Positions 10,807 through 15,822 of a stretch of 64,000 nt of DNA are shown here, piece by piece. Within the stretch, counting starts at the first letter, position 1. The number at the start of each line of letters is the position of its first letter. Source of the stretch: Sulfurimonas sp. HSL-3221. GTDB lineage: Bacteria > Campylobacterota > Campylobacteria > Campylobacterales > Sulfurimonadaceae. The position numbers were made by a program, and so were the translations under genes. Under the pieces are notes generated by a model. That model did not search any database and was not told where the DNA came from. It was given only the letters and a program-made list of their open reading frames with translations. The DNA is taken from NCBI RefSeq assembly GCF_021044585.1, contig NZ_CP087998.1:1798001-1862000 (forward strand). Reading direction: 5' to 3'.

Positions 10807-11679
10807 ATGCAGAATCTTGTTTCCATATATGAAGAGAATGCCGACCTGATCCAGAAATTCATCCTTGCGTCCATCCAGCGGATCGGACTCATTCATCTGA
10901 CGGAAAAGAACGTCAAGCACATTTTTAACGTCTTCCCGAGCCTGGAATTGGCCTATGAAACCGACGAAGGGTTCGCCCAGACTTCGGCCAACTACAGCCG
11001 CCACAAAAGCGATACGGCGGCCGTCGGCGCGGACCGGAGCTATCTCATCGACGAGAGCAAGCTCGTCGGCGACTACTATTTTCATGAGCCCTACCTCTCC
11101 ACAACGACGGGGCATCTGTGCATCACCATCGTTTACAAAACGGCCAAAGGGGGGTATATCCTGCTGGATTTCCAGCTGCGCAACCTCCTCGAGCGCTTCA
11201 TGCTGATCGAGAACAACGGTGGGCTCAAAATGACCCACCGTACCCTCTACGGCATTATCGGAGGGGGGCTGCTGCTGTTGGGGATCTTTGTCGTTCTCTA
11301 CGGACTCTTCAGCTTCGGCCACTACCTTATCGTCGAGGATGTCCTCTCGCTGGAGATGTTCTTCAAACCCGTCATTGCCCTCACCCTGGGACTGGCCGTG
11401 TACGACCTTGGCAAAACGATCGTCGACCAGGAGGTGATGCCCAAAACCCAGAAAGTCGACGAGGGGATCAAGGTGAAGACCCTGCTCAACTTCTCCGTCT
11501 CCATCCTCATCGCCCTGATGATCGAGGCGCTGCTGGTCGTTTTCAAGATCTCCATCTCCAACTACCACGACCTCCCCTACGCCGCCTCGCTGATCGGTGC
11601 GCTCGCCCTGCTCTTCTTTGTTTTCTCCTACTTCATCTACATCGTCAGAAAGAGCGGGGCCGCCCCCGAGATCGAATAG
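10807..11679 (+). CDS. PDC/Cache-like sensor membrane protein
   Basis: The 290-residue product starts after AAGGAG. Residues 1-140 form a soluble module with a YxxDESKLVGDYYFHEPY segment and a VYKTAKGGYILLDFQ strand, similar to PDC/Cache sensor folds. Four hydrophobic segments follow, at about 150-175, 190-205, 220-245 and 255-280. There is no kinase, GGDEF or methyl-accepting output domain, so signalling must go through a partner. Without a leading signal anchor the sensor part is probably cytoplasmic. The gene lies behind a sigma-54-like promoter. Confidence 0.65.
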   Translation: MQNLVSIYEENADLIQKFILASIQRIGLIHLTEKNVKHIFNVFPSLELAYETDEGFAQTSANYSRHKSDTAAVGADRSYLIDESKLVGDYYFHEPYLSTTTGHLCITIVYKTAKGGYILLDFQLRNLLERFMLIENNGGLKMTHRTLYGIIGGGLLLLGIFVVLYGLFSFGHYLIVEDVLSLEMFFKPVIALTLGLAVYDLGKTIVDQEVMPKTQKVDEGIKVKTLLNFSVSILIALMIEALLVVFKISISNYHDLPYAASLIGALALLFFVFSYFIYIVRKSGAAPEIE

Positions 11680-11682
11680 GCA

Positions 11683-12525
11683 TCAGTAGGCGTCAAAGAG
11701 CGTCTGGATGTGCGCGGCATCGTGGGTCGCGAGCGAGAGCGGCCGCCGCTGGCCGCGGCGGACCCGTTCGTCGAACGTATCGCTCTCCCGGCGGTAGAAG
11801 ACGCCAAGCGGAAACGGGCCCTCCTCCATCGCCCGGGCCATCGCCGCGCCGAGATCGGCCGTGTCGTGGGAAGCGTCCAGTTCGTAGGTATGCCCCTCGA
11901 ACCAGCCGAAGGTGTTGATCTTGTTGAAGGTCACGCAGGGCTGGAAAATGTCGACCAGGGCGTAGCCGCGGTGCAGAAAAGCGGCTTTGAGGACCGATTT
12001 GGCATGCTCGGGATTCCCGATATTGACCCGGGAGACGAACCCCGCCCGCAGCGCCAGTGCCACGGCGAGGGGGTTGAAGGGCTCGTTACCGACCCCGTCG
12101 ACCTGCACCTTCGTTTCCATCCCTTTTTGGCTCGTCGGCGACGCCTGCCCCTTGGTCAGCCCGTAGATCATATTGTTGTGGACGATATGGACGATGTCGA
12201 CGTTGCGCCGGACGGCATGCAGGAAGTGGTTGCCCCCCTCCCCGTACATATCGCCGTCGCCCCCCTCGGCCACAACGGTCAGTTCGGGGTTGGCCGCCTT
12301 GACCGCCGTCGCGACGGGAACGGCGCGCCCGTGCAGTACCCCGAACATATTGACGTCGACGTAATAGGGTGTCTTCGCCGCCTGGCCGATGCCCGAAACG
12401 ATGACGACGCTGCGCCCGTCGGCATTCAACGCATCGAGTACCTCGCGGATCAGCGTCAGAATGCCGAAGTTCCCGCACCCCGGGCACCAGCCGATATCTG
12501 TATTTTCACGTTCAAACGGTTTCAT
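11683..12525 (-). CDS. 2-oxoacid:ferredoxin oxidoreductase, beta subunit
   Basis: This 280-residue subunit binds thiamine diphosphate and the proximal [4Fe-4S] cluster. It shows WCPGCG (Cys14, Cys17), the TPP motif GGDGD (88-92) with a downstream Asn, and a third cysteine in QPCVTFN (about 197). It matches the PorB/KorB family and would oxidatively decarboxylate a 2-oxoacid with CoA. Its ATG overlaps the stop of the alpha-gamma fusion by 4 bases. No ferredoxin-like delta subunit is present, as in two-subunit enzymes. The substrate (2-oxoglutarate, pyruvate or broad) is not determined. Confidence 0.88.
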   Translation of the reverse strand: MKPFERENTDIGWCPGCGNFGILTLIREVLDALNADGRSVVIVSGIGQAAKTPYYVDVNMFGVLHGRAVPVATAVKAANPELTVVAEGGDGDMYGEGGNHFLHAVRRNVDIVHIVHNNMIYGLTKGQASPTSQKGMETKVQVDGVGNEPFNPLAVALALRAGFVSRVNIGNPEHAKSVLKAAFLHRGYALVDIFQPCVTFNKINTFGWFEGHTYELDASHDTADLGAAMARAMEEGPFPLGVFYRRESDTFDERVRRGQRRPLSLATHDAAHIQTLFDAY

Positions 12526-15095
12526 GAGAGCTCCTTTAATTGGGCACCGAGTTCCTGCGCCAGCTGGTCGGCAAAGAAGGCGAAACCGTTGCTCTGCAGG
12601 ATGCGCCGGTCGACCCCGACGCCGTGCAGCGCCAATTGCTCCGCGAAGGCGCCGTCGGCGTTGTTCTCGACGACGATGCGATAGTCGTACGTCTCCAGGA
12701 AGGCGAGCTGTTCTGGGTTAAGCGGATGTACCCAGGCAAAGTGGACCTGGCAGGTACGCTCGTCTCCCAGACGCGCCAGGGCCTCGGCAACGGCGCCGCG
12801 GCTCGAGCCCCAGCCGATCACCGCGATGCTCCCCGCACCGCGCACTTCCGGCGCCCACGCCTCGGCCACGATCCCTTCGGCCTTTCGGGCCCGCTTGGCG
12901 ACCATCGCCTCTCGGACGCGGAAGTCCTCGGTGATCTGCCCCCTTGCGTCGTGTTCGTGCCCGTCGCTGCAGACCAGCCCCTCGCCGCCGCCCGGGACGG
13001 CCCGGGGGCTAACGCCCGAGGGGGTGTCGGCGTAACGGTTGTACGTTTCGGATGCCGGTGCAATGTAGCGGCGCTGTTCGAAGGCAGCGAAATCGATGTC
13101 GCCGGTCATCGCCATCGTATCGGCGAGGTACTGGTCACTGAGCATGATGACGGGCACCTGCCACCGGTCGGCCAGTTCAAAGGCGAGATGGCCCAGTTCA
13201 ACGCATTCGTGCAGCGAACCCGGGGCGAGAATGATCCGCGGGAAGGGGCCGTGGCCCGAGTGCAGCGCGAGGTTCAGGTCGCCCTGTTCGCTGCGGGTCG
13301 GCAGCCCCGTCGCCGGGCCGGGCCGCTGGGCCAGGTAGACGACGGCGGGGGTCTCCGTCATTCCCGAGAGGCTTATGCCCTCTCCCATCAGCGCGAACCC
13401 GCCCCCCGACGTCGTCGTCAGCGCCCGTGCACCGGCGTACCACGCCCCCATCACGAGGTGGATCGAGGCAATCTCGTCCTCGCTCTGTTCCACGGCGATC
13501 TCGAAGCGTTTGGACATCCCCGCCATAAAGTTCAGCACCCCCGTGGAGGGGGACATCGGATAGGAAGCGACGAAGTTGCACCCCCCGGCGAGGAAGCCGA
13601 AGCCGCAGGCGGTCGTGCCGTCCATCAGGTGCAGGGCGGCGGCCCCTTCGGGATGGGAGTGCGGCAGCGGCGGCAGCGGGGGATGCTGAAGAGTACGGCC
13701 CACATCGGCCCCGGCCTCCGCCGCGTGAACATTCCCCTCGTCCCGCGCGAAACGCGCCTGCACGCTGGCGTTCAATGCCTCCGTTTCAAGGCCCAGCATC
13801 CCGTAGACCAGCCCGGCGGCATAGGTGTTGGCGTAGCGCGGGTCGCCCAGCCGCTGCGCCTCGCGCTGCATCGCAACGGCAATCGCGCCGGGCGCCTCCG
13901 ACGCAAAACGCTCGTCGGTCAGTACGACCGTCTGCGCGCTAAGGCGCGGCGCCGCGTGGGTCAGGGCCAGGGCGTCAAGCGCGATAAAGAGGTCCACCTC
14001 CCAGCAGGGTGCTTCCAGCGGGGCGTCGGCGATACGGATAAGCGTCGTATTGCTCCCCCCGCGTACCCGGGACATGAACTCCTTGCTCGAATAGACGTAG
14101 TAGCCGCTGCGGACAAAGGCGTCGCTGAGCACCTTCTCCAGGGTGTCGATCCCCATGCCCGCCGCCCCGCCGATCAGGATGGAGAGGCTCTGCCCGGTTT
14201 CGGGCGGGGTTGGGGACGCCGGCACATGCCGCTGCAGCGGCGGCATGGAAGGGTCGGCGGCGAAAGGGACCTCATACCGCCCGGCCGAGGGCAGCTTCGC
14301 GTTCATCTCCGGCAAAGGCGTTGGCACGGATGCCTTCACGGCGGCGGGCACGGGGGCCTCTTTCGCCTGGGGATAGGGCATGCTCTCGCCCCAGGTGATC
14401 TTGCCGCCGTAGTAGCCCAGCACGATCACCCCCGCGCCCGTCAACAGGACGATCGCATGGTAGGTAATGCCTTCGGCCGACATCGTGTAGACGATGCCAG
14501 GGGCTTCGAGATAGAGCATGATCGCGACGACCCCCGCCAGCAGCATCGCCACGGAGAGCACGATTTTGACGGCAAAGGGACGGCGCCACGTACCGCCGTA
14601 ATTGATCCGCCAACTGATCAGCCCCGGTACCATTGCAACCACCCCCATAACCGTCGCCGCCAGGAAAGTATAAAAGACGGCAGCGGCATAGAGCGCGGTC
14701 GGTACGGCGAAAAAGAGCAGGTCCATCAACGCTGAAAAGAGGTGCAGCGCTATGGGGAAGTGGACGGTCATCGGGTGGGGGTGGTAGCGGCGGTAGAGCG
14801 CCTGCCAACGCCGGCGGCGCTCTTTGTTCGCGTCCGGCGGCGGCGAATCGGCCCGGGCCTTCTGTTCCGGCTCCGCCTCCAGCGTGCCGACGACGCTGTA
14901 GCGTTCAAATACCTCATCTCCGTGCGGCGCGCCTTCAAGCATCGGCGTGAGGTCGCGCCCCGCCTGATGCATCCCCTGGTGGTTCCCCTCCGCCCACATC
15001 GGGCTCTCCGACACGTCGTAGATCTTCCCTTTGTAGGCGACATAGGCGGGTCTTCCGTCGCGGCCGTCGTAGGCCGCAAGTTCACGCGGTGTCAT
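12522..15095 (-). CDS. Fusion: cytochrome b5-like + DUF2231 membrane + 2-oxoacid oxidoreductase gamma-alpha
   Basis: A continuous 857-residue protein with three parts. Residues 1-75 are a cytochrome b5-like domain (AYKGKIYDVS, then GNHQGMHQAGRDLT, and His58 in APHGD); His43 and His58 are candidate heme ligands. Residues 104-238 are a DUF2231-type membrane domain opening HPHPMTVHFPIALH, with four hydrophobic segments and a closing GGKITWG. After a Pro/Ala-rich linker (about 240-302) comes a 2-oxoacid:acceptor oxidoreductase gamma domain (303-490) joined to an alpha domain (505-857) with ASYPMSPST, RPGPATGLPTRSEQGDL and SGHGPFPR motifs. Four segments leave both soluble ends in the cytoplasm. 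Ordinary gamma-alpha subunits are soluble and near 560-600 residues. AAAGGAGG supports the start. Confidence 0.85.
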   Translation of the reverse strand: MTPRELAAYDGRDGRPAYVAYKGKIYDVSESPMWAEGNHQGMHQAGRDLTPMLEGAPHGDEVFERYSVVGTLEAEPEQKARADSPPPDANKERRRRWQALYRRYHPHPMTVHFPIALHLFSALMDLLFFAVPTALYAAAVFYTFLAATVMGVVAMVPGLISWRINYGGTWRRPFAVKIVLSVAMLLAGVVAIMLYLEAPGIVYTMSAEGITYHAIVLLTGAGVIVLGYYGGKITWGESMPYPQAKEAPVPAAVKASVPTPLPEMNAKLPSAGRYEVPFAADPSMPPLQRHVPASPTPPETGQSLSILIGGAAGMGIDTLEKVLSDAFVRSGYYVYSSKEFMSRVRGGSNTTLIRIADAPLEAPCWEVDLFIALDALALTHAAPRLSAQTVVLTDERFASEAPGAIAVAMQREAQRLGDPRYANTYAAGLVYGMLGLETEALNASVQARFARDEGNVHAAEAGADVGRTLQHPPLPPLPHSHPEGAAALHLMDGTTACGFGFLAGGCNFVASYPMSPSTGVLNFMAGMSKRFEIAVEQSEDEIASIHLVMGAWYAGARALTTTSGGGFALMGEGISLSGMTETPAVVYLAQRPGPATGLPTRSEQGDLNLALHSGHGPFPRIILAPGSLHECVELGHLAFELADRWQVPVIMLSDQYLADTMAMTGDIDFAAFEQRRYIAPASETYNRYADTPSGVSPRAVPGGGEGLVCSDGHEHDARGQITEDFRVREAMVAKRARKAEGIVAEAWAPEVRGAGSIAVIGWGSSRGAVAEALARLGDERTCQVHFAWVHPLNPEQLAFLETYDYRIVVENNADGAFAEQLALHGVGVDRRILQSNGFAFFADQLAQELGAQLKELS

Positions 15096-15141: not shown

Positions 15142-15822
15142 TTACGTGGCGGTCGTTTCGTTTGCCTGCATCGTATCGACATAGTCGCAGACTTCGCTGT
15201 CCTCATTGCACGGCTGGCTGTAGCCGGCGATGGGGTCGTTCTCCTCCGCGGCAAGGTTGTCGGAAACGAAGCGCCAGTTGATCAATGTCCACCAGTTCTC
15301 CAGGTACTCCGGCCGGGCGTTGCGGCGGTCAATGTAGTAGGCGTGTTCCCAGACATCACAGACCAGCAGCGGCCGACGCCCGTAACGTACGGGCGTATCC
15401 GCGTTGGAGGTCGTTTCAATCACGAGGGTATTGTCATTTCTGAGAACGAGCCAGGTCCACCCGGACCCGAACAGCCCCGCCGCCGCAGCAAGGAAGGCAC
15501 CTTTGAACCCTTCCATGGAGCCGAAGTCGCGCTCGATCATCTCGGAGAGCTCCACCGACGGTGCCGTGGTCTCGGCGGAGAGGCCCAGCCAGTAGAAGTC
15601 GTGGTTGAAGACCTGCGCGGCGTTGTTGAAGACACCGTTCTGTGCTTCGCGGATGATCTTGAGCAGCGGCGCGTCTTCGAGGGGGGTCCCCTCGATCAGG
15701 CCGTTGAGCTTGTTGACGTAGCCGGCATGGTGTTTTCCGTAATGGAATGACACCGTTTCGGCAGAGATATAGGGTTCCAGCGCCGTCTCTTCGTACGGCA
15801 GCTTCATCAATTCAAATGCCAT
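15142..15822 (-). CDS. sodB: Superoxide dismutase, Fe/Mn family
   Basis: The 226-residue enzyme has the Fe/Mn SOD metal ligands in FHYGKHHAGYV (His27), NHDFYWLGL, and DVWEHAYYIDRRN. GLFGSGWTWLV is also typical. It converts superoxide to peroxide and oxygen in the cytoplasm; Fe is more likely than Mn by overall similarity to SodB. A roughly 25-residue acidic C-terminal extension with two Cys (QPCNEDSEVCDY) goes beyond the usual length. It ends 46 bases before the oxidoreductase fusion on the same strand. Confidence 0.92.
   Translation of the reverse strand: MAFELMKLPYEETALEPYISAETVSFHYGKHHAGYVNKLNGLIEGTPLEDAPLLKIIREAQNGVFNNAAQVFNHDFYWLGLSAETTAPSVELSEMIERDFGSMEGFKGAFLAAAAGLFGSGWTWLVLRNDNTLVIETTSNADTPVRYGRRPLLVCDVWEHAYYIDRRNARPEYLENWWTLINWRFVSDNLAAEENDPIAGYSQPCNEDSEVCDYVDTMQANETTAT

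Follow-up and report, generated by a model that had tools for sequence, protein, structure and literature searches.

The closest described relatives of the system considered here are the two-subunit 2-oxoacid:ferredoxin oxidoreductase (OFOR) of Sulfolobus tokodaii (5b46/5b48) and the 2-oxoglutarate:ferredoxin oxidoreductase of Magnetococcus (6n2n), in which a fused gamma-alpha chain pairs with a beta subunit and a ferredoxin domain is absent. We analysed a window of 64,000 nucleotides from Sulfurimonas sp. HSL-3221 (contig NZ_CP087998.1, positions 1,798,001 to 1,862,000; window coordinates below count from its first base), where one gene on the minus strand (12522..15095) joins a cytochrome b5-type domain, a DUF2231 membrane domain and a linker to the gamma and alpha domains of such an enzyme, with the beta subunit gene overlapping downstream (11683..12525, minus strand). 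The subunit arrangement, the lack of a ferredoxin domain and the active-site residues are shared with the Sulfolobus and Magnetococcus enzymes, whereas the N-terminal b5 and DUF2231 domains, the motif YPMSP for YPITP and a glutamine (Gln48) for the fourth cysteine of the beta subunit set this enzyme apart. A DUF2231 membrane domain in the same chain is also unlike the soluble two-subunit oxidoreductases, which have no membrane domain.

Stand-alone b5 domains of the same fold and with the same histidine positions, 49-58% identical to the one found here, are represented by 6vz6 (Methanococcoides) and 6nzx (Hadesarchaea), but these are small single-domain chains, whereas the b5 domain here is one part of a longer chain that also holds a membrane domain and an oxidoreductase. 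In how it might work, the enzyme can be compared with flavocytochrome b2, which couples 2-hydroxyacid oxidation to a b5 domain, and with the pyruvate:quinone oxidase PoxB, which couples 2-oxoacid oxidation to membrane quinone; both have unrelated catalytic folds and flavin cofactors, and neither uses coenzyme A. An earlier note on this DNA, made from the sequence alone, knew of no described enzyme of this kind, and the papers found likewise describe neither a fusion of b5 to an oxidoreductase nor any member of this enzyme family that is membrane-anchored or heme-linked; for DUF2231 the library searched held essentially no literature, save one unrelated mention. The core enzyme and the small domains are known, while their combination with an altered cluster site is undescribed in the literature found. 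An extra 'two-subunit Oor' (OorA/OorB) has been counted beside a four-subunit Oor and Por in Thiomicrolovo, Sulfonitrofixus and Hydrocurvibacter, and reported as expressed in sediments (PMC12403661, PMC12943458). This is very probably the fused gene with its beta partner, our source presumably belonging to Thiomicrolovo (Sulfurimonadaceae, a family of sulfur oxidizers). The available portions of both papers treat it as an ordinary enzyme and leave its N-terminal domains unmentioned, and a text search of PMC12403661 (2025) returned no mention of cytochrome b5.

The fused frame starts with ATG and has 857 codons. Counted above Pfam gathering scores, it contains a Cyt-b5 domain (PF00173; residues 2-72, 14880..15092; 26.8 bits against a cut-off of 23.7), the DUF2231 domain (PF09990; residues 107-235, 14391..14777; 35 bits against 26.4), the gamma domain (POR; residues 313-463, 13707..14159; 87 bits, with Z 21.3 to the gamma subunit of 3on3) and the alpha pyrimidine/thiamine diphosphate domain (POR_N; residues 502-733, 12897..13592; 165 bits), all on the minus strand. 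Between the membrane and catalytic parts runs a flexible linker of 66 residues rich in proline and alanine (39% together; residues 236-301, 14193..14390, minus strand), which is disordered in the AlphaFold2 (AF2) model (predicted local distance difference test, pLDDT, below 50 at residues 235-299). The two-subunit alpha model TIGR03710 covers residues 304-848 of the fused chain (547.5 bits, cut-off 482.75), and the beta gene, with TPP_enzyme_C and PFO_beta_C domains, scores 329 bits against TIGR02177 (cut-off 261.9); its start overlaps the stop of the fused gene by 4 bases (ATGA). By these curated NCBIfam cut-offs the two chains are classed as a two-subunit 2-oxoacid:acceptor oxidoreductase, and open reading frame, Pfam and NCBIfam evidence together confirm the one-frame architecture and overlapping beta gene of the earlier note. 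Convergent with the beta gene lies a predicted membrane protein of 290 amino acids without Pfam or NCBIfam match (10807-11679, plus strand); in G300 a protein of like start and length follows beta at the corresponding position (L050, 3672-4538), so that this may be a conserved neighbour.

The fusion is genuine and conserved. The source genome is one 2.52-Mb contig of 100% completeness (G+C of the window 59%), the same fused frame is present in three more single-contig congeneric genomes at 89-95% identity, and it recurs in further genera of the family at 48-64% identity. The ratio of nonsynonymous to synonymous substitution rates (dN/dS) relative to the congeners is 0.03-0.06 for b5, 0.06-0.13 for DUF2231 and 0.06-0.22 for the oxidoreductase, as against 0.45-0.68 for the linker, so that every folded domain is under purifying selection and the linker hardly so; the b5 domain is the most constrained part within the genus. 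An artefact or frameshift is rejected by the complete genomes, the conserved frame and dN/dS. In particular, the four complete congeneric genomes all share the frame and so exclude a sequencing frameshift of the kind that, between membrane and gamma domains, would have refuted the earlier note.

Profile, fold and two histidine positions identify the N-terminal domain as cytochrome b5-type, with heme binding predicted. It is 57% identical to the solved Methanococcoides domain 6vz6 and has the b5 fold (Z 14 to 6vz6 and to 6nzx). H39, H43 and H58 are invariant in 20/20 sequences; the invariant H39 and H43 go with a motif HxAG that corresponds to HPGG in cytochrome b5, and H43 and H58 align with the axial histidines of b5, which suggests that they would be the axial heme ligands. 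The DUF2231 region has its own invariant residues, namely H105 (just before the domain), H107, H112, H118, W162, N165, Y166, K177, H213, Y228 and Y229. Copies without b5 still keep the five invariant histidines of DUF2231 plus the Lys, Trp, Asn and Tyr residues. Because these polar invariants are kept, also in b5-less copies, DUF2231 looks like more than a bare anchor. A bis-histidine heme site within it (H118/H213 or H112) was considered and is not claimed, the depths by helix position not obviously matching. The source genome encodes two more DUF2231 proteins without b5 (L128, 1444-2190; L130, 1465-2079), which by eye have a histidine in the third helix where the oxidoreductase-linked type has the invariant Lys177.

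Four transmembrane (TM) helices are predicted by the model in DUF2231, at residues 108-130, 134-166, 172-197 and 207-235. Both termini, and hence b5 and oxidoreductase, are predicted on the cytoplasmic side, because net positive charge precedes TM1 (K+R 9, D+E 4) and fills the TM2-TM3 loop (K+R 3, D+E 0). The positive-inside rule here agrees with the earlier note, which had placed the heme-type domain and the enzyme on that same side. In the AF2 model, built from 28 sequences, b5, DUF2231 and gamma were modelled well, but alpha and beta came out poorly, with a mean pLDDT of 68.6 and 66.9, respectively. Oxidoreductase matches filled the Foldseek and VIA match lists of the full-length model, inside which alone DUF2231 was searched; its best helical match (8hcr_S, Z 9.8) is within chance for helical bundles.

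Residue roles and numbering for the catalytic core follow the Sulfolobus OFOR, in which Arg344 binds the substrate carboxylate and the alpha chain carries YPITP (PMC5020499). Arg344 corresponds to the invariant Arg591 of the fused chain, and YPITP to an invariant YPMSP at 512-516 (Thr257 to Ser); Ser342, Thr596, beta Lys51 and beta Leu123 are further kept substrate-binding or active-site residues. Asp468 is Asp in most sequences and His in 8/22, including the genus of the source. With this variation the residues do not single out one substrate, which may be pyruvate and/or 2-oxoglutarate. A phosphoenolpyruvate (PEP) synthase gene beside a split version of the locus, described below, hints at pyruvate.

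The cluster site of the beta subunit is altered. Cys14, Cys17 and Cys197 are invariant, and the position of Sulfolobus Cys46 is taken by Gln48 (codon 12382..12384, minus strand) in 22/22 aligned sequences and in all other beta subunits read, so that beta lacks one of the four canonical cysteine ligands of the single [4Fe-4S] cluster, a feature that the earlier note did not remark on. Four homologous solved chains have a cysteine there, i.e. four cluster cysteines, as do two plasmid-borne homologues and the organism's own OorB. Gln48 is kept in beta subunits whose alpha chain has lost b5 and DUF2231; it is for this reason, on the alignment, a feature of the clade and not a consequence of the fusion. 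Judging from its ligands, the site might be empty, or it might hold a [3Fe-4S] cluster or a [4Fe-4S] cluster in which one position is open or has a ligand other than cysteine. Glutamine at this site is presumably present in other bacterial beta subunits of the NF008821 type, which we take as a lead only.

Among 228 genomes of the family, b5-DUF2231 occurs in 40, this beta type in 42 and both in 36 (hypergeometric P ~4e-31). One further case, G300, was found outside the family within the phylum. Beyond the phylum, a single scan of genome contigs with one sequence and six peptide patterns returned solely two Campylobacterota metagenome-assembled genomes (MAGs); scans of viral contigs gave no relatives, and those of plasmids gave just b5-only matches and ordinary beta subunits. 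In a Sulfuricurvum-like sister clade, which comprises about a dozen genomes, b5-DUF2231 and oxidoreductase are two overlapping genes without a linker. The earlier note had held that separate, linker-free parts in many homologues would speak against its reading; such genes do occur in this clade, but they do not make the fusion an artefact, and they show that the system can do without the linker and that its two halves are partners dedicated to each other. Wherever split-clade loci have enough flank, a PEP synthase (pyruvate, water dikinase) gene, named by eye, lies directly upstream (L052, 4960-7455; L053, 5076-7481; L127, 1680-4148). In the beta tree the split and fused clades are separate, with moderate supports for deep branches; G300, which is split and whose alpha has a linker-like N-terminus, falls inside the fused clade, and membrane-less cases are scattered.

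These membrane-less cases belong to a series of natural losses. DUF2231 without b5, with all its histidines, occurs with the oxidoreductase in three genomes (G370, G375, G392), and the oxidoreductase lacks both domains in three others (G070, G326, G376), two of them by in-frame deletion: in G326 the first 16 b5 residues run straight into the linker region, and in G376 a 22-residue remnant joins the b5 start to the DUF2231 end. Conversely, b5-DUF2231 occurs without the oxidoreductase in G408, which keeps sodB, and alone in G451. Several variant genomes are draft MAGs in which single cases may be assembly errors, yet the pattern recurs. The membrane part is so a dedicated but dispensable partner of the oxidoreductase. 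Large deletions through the locus have left decayed remnants in G003 and G454, where b5, in one form with some of DUF2231 still attached, runs into a C-terminal fragment of beta (L065, 1827-2313; L119, 5502-6194).

The sodB gene for Fe/Mn superoxide dismutase (15142..15822, minus strand; Pfam) lies 46 bases upstream of the fused gene. About half of the 32 loci compared have it next to the system or nearby, and many carriers lack it in the immediate locus; its frequency as a neighbour suggests use under microoxic conditions. In one genome (G516) a small twin-arginine-type cysteine protein, read by eye, lies between sodB and the fused gene (L123, 5691-5963) and resembles a high-potential iron-sulfur protein.

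The best reading, which we hold as a reasonable possibility somewhat short of probable, is that b5-DUF2231 gives a membrane-held oxidoreductase an optional oxidative electron outlet to the quinone pool, ferredoxin remaining usable. Beta would bind the gamma-alpha part as in the Sulfolobus OFOR, and the whole enzyme would be suspended by its flexible linker from the inner membrane, on the cytoplasmic side. Thiamine diphosphate chemistry would pass electrons to the beta cluster site, where the tethered b5 domain could dock at the place of ferredoxin and pass electrons singly into the membrane domain and on to the menaquinone pool. Soluble ferredoxin would stay a partner and b5-DUF2231 an extra outlet, which would account for natural variants in which b5 or the entire membrane part is missing. 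The fusion, the operon overlap, the co-occurrence, the constraint on b5, the polar residues of DUF2231, the kept active site, the topology and sodB all favour such an outlet. By textbook potentials, with 2-oxoacid oxidation near -0.5 V and menaquinone at about -0.07 V, electron flow from 2-oxoacid through b5 heme to menaquinone would be downhill and the reverse uphill by ~0.4 V. The route from cluster through heme to quinone put forward in the earlier note is weakened, however, in that it cannot be obligatory, because the oxidoreductase is found without b5 or without b5 and DUF2231. The reverse flow from quinol to heme for CO2 fixation, which that note had also entertained, is thermodynamically unlikely, since nothing in the architecture, which has no coupling module, would drive it.

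Several observations weigh against an outlet to quinones. The oxidoreductase persists in the six genomes without b5 or without the membrane part, and b5-DUF2231 persists without it in G408 and G451, where it may serve some separate function. Gln48 makes both the existence and the potential of the cluster uncertain, and DUF2231 has no demonstrated site for quinone or heme. The organisms, moreover, are reported to be obligate chemolithoautotrophs (PMC12403661), and in such organisms oxidative use of the enzyme would not be the first need to come to mind.

Alternatively, and we think rather doubtfully, the enzyme could be a ferredoxin-independent 2-oxoacid:quinone oxidoreductase passing electrons one by one from the site of three cysteines and a glutamine to the covalently tethered b5 heme and through DUF2231 to menaquinone; oxidation of pyruvate or 2-oxoglutarate would then enter the respiratory chain directly, and DUF2231 would have a first function. 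It is similarly somewhat improbable that the membrane part keeps a CO2-fixing oxidoreductase beside ferredoxin-reducing complexes (Nuo-type complex I, group IV hydrogenase), electrons passing from complex to ferredoxin to oxidoreductase with b5 outside the path. Obligate autotrophy with a reductive tricarboxylic acid (TCA) cycle and a group IV hydrogenase, reported in PMC12403661, agrees with this, as do the PEP synthase gene that begins the split-clade operon, its product catalysing the step after pyruvate synthesis, and the persistence of membrane-free variants. It leaves unexplained, however, why b5, with both histidines, is the most constrained domain, and why DUF2231 keeps polar residues where a plain anchor would drift. 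The organism also already has a four-subunit Oor and Por (PMC12403661); the source genome encodes a KorA/OorA-like and a PorA-like OFOR besides the one described.

Less likely again is that b5-DUF2231 has its own role as a membrane redox protein, independent of the oxidoreductase (one dealing with oxygen or superoxide alongside sodB, for instance), and that the two have an operon in common and were fused by a mechanistically neutral loss of a stop codon: sodB with b5-DUF2231 in G408, b5-DUF2231 alone in G451 and the persistence of both split and fused states would fit, but co-occurrence is very strong (36/40 carriers also have the oxidoreductase) and the fused state is maintained across several genera. 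That b5-DUF2231 drains electrons of the radical intermediate to quinones in oxygen, averting superoxide and complementing SodB, is quite unlikely despite the sodB neighbour in many loci, the reported relative oxygen tolerance of two-subunit OFORs without a ferredoxin domain (PMC5020499) and growth of Thiomicrolovo strain ZZH C-3 at 10% oxygen (PMC12943458), since many carriers have no sodB in the immediate locus.

If b5-DUF2231 does work as an electron outlet, 2-oxoacid oxidation would feed quinones directly, and this would alter the way in which these autotrophs keep the reductive TCA cycle in balance once they meet oxygen. Since fused, split, b5-less, membrane-less and oxidoreductase-less forms all occur in nature, what each part does can be tested directly. 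The findings also correct an annotation in the literature: what has been counted in these bacteria as a 'two-subunit Oor' has an altered cluster site and is predicted to be attached to the membrane, and because of these two features its equation with the anaerobic Hydrogenobacter enzyme is doubtful. Lastly, beside the sodB-b5-oxidoreductase locus of G300 lies a Cas9-like gene (1017 amino acids), after which come cas1- and cas2-like genes and repeats (L050, 10333-14624).

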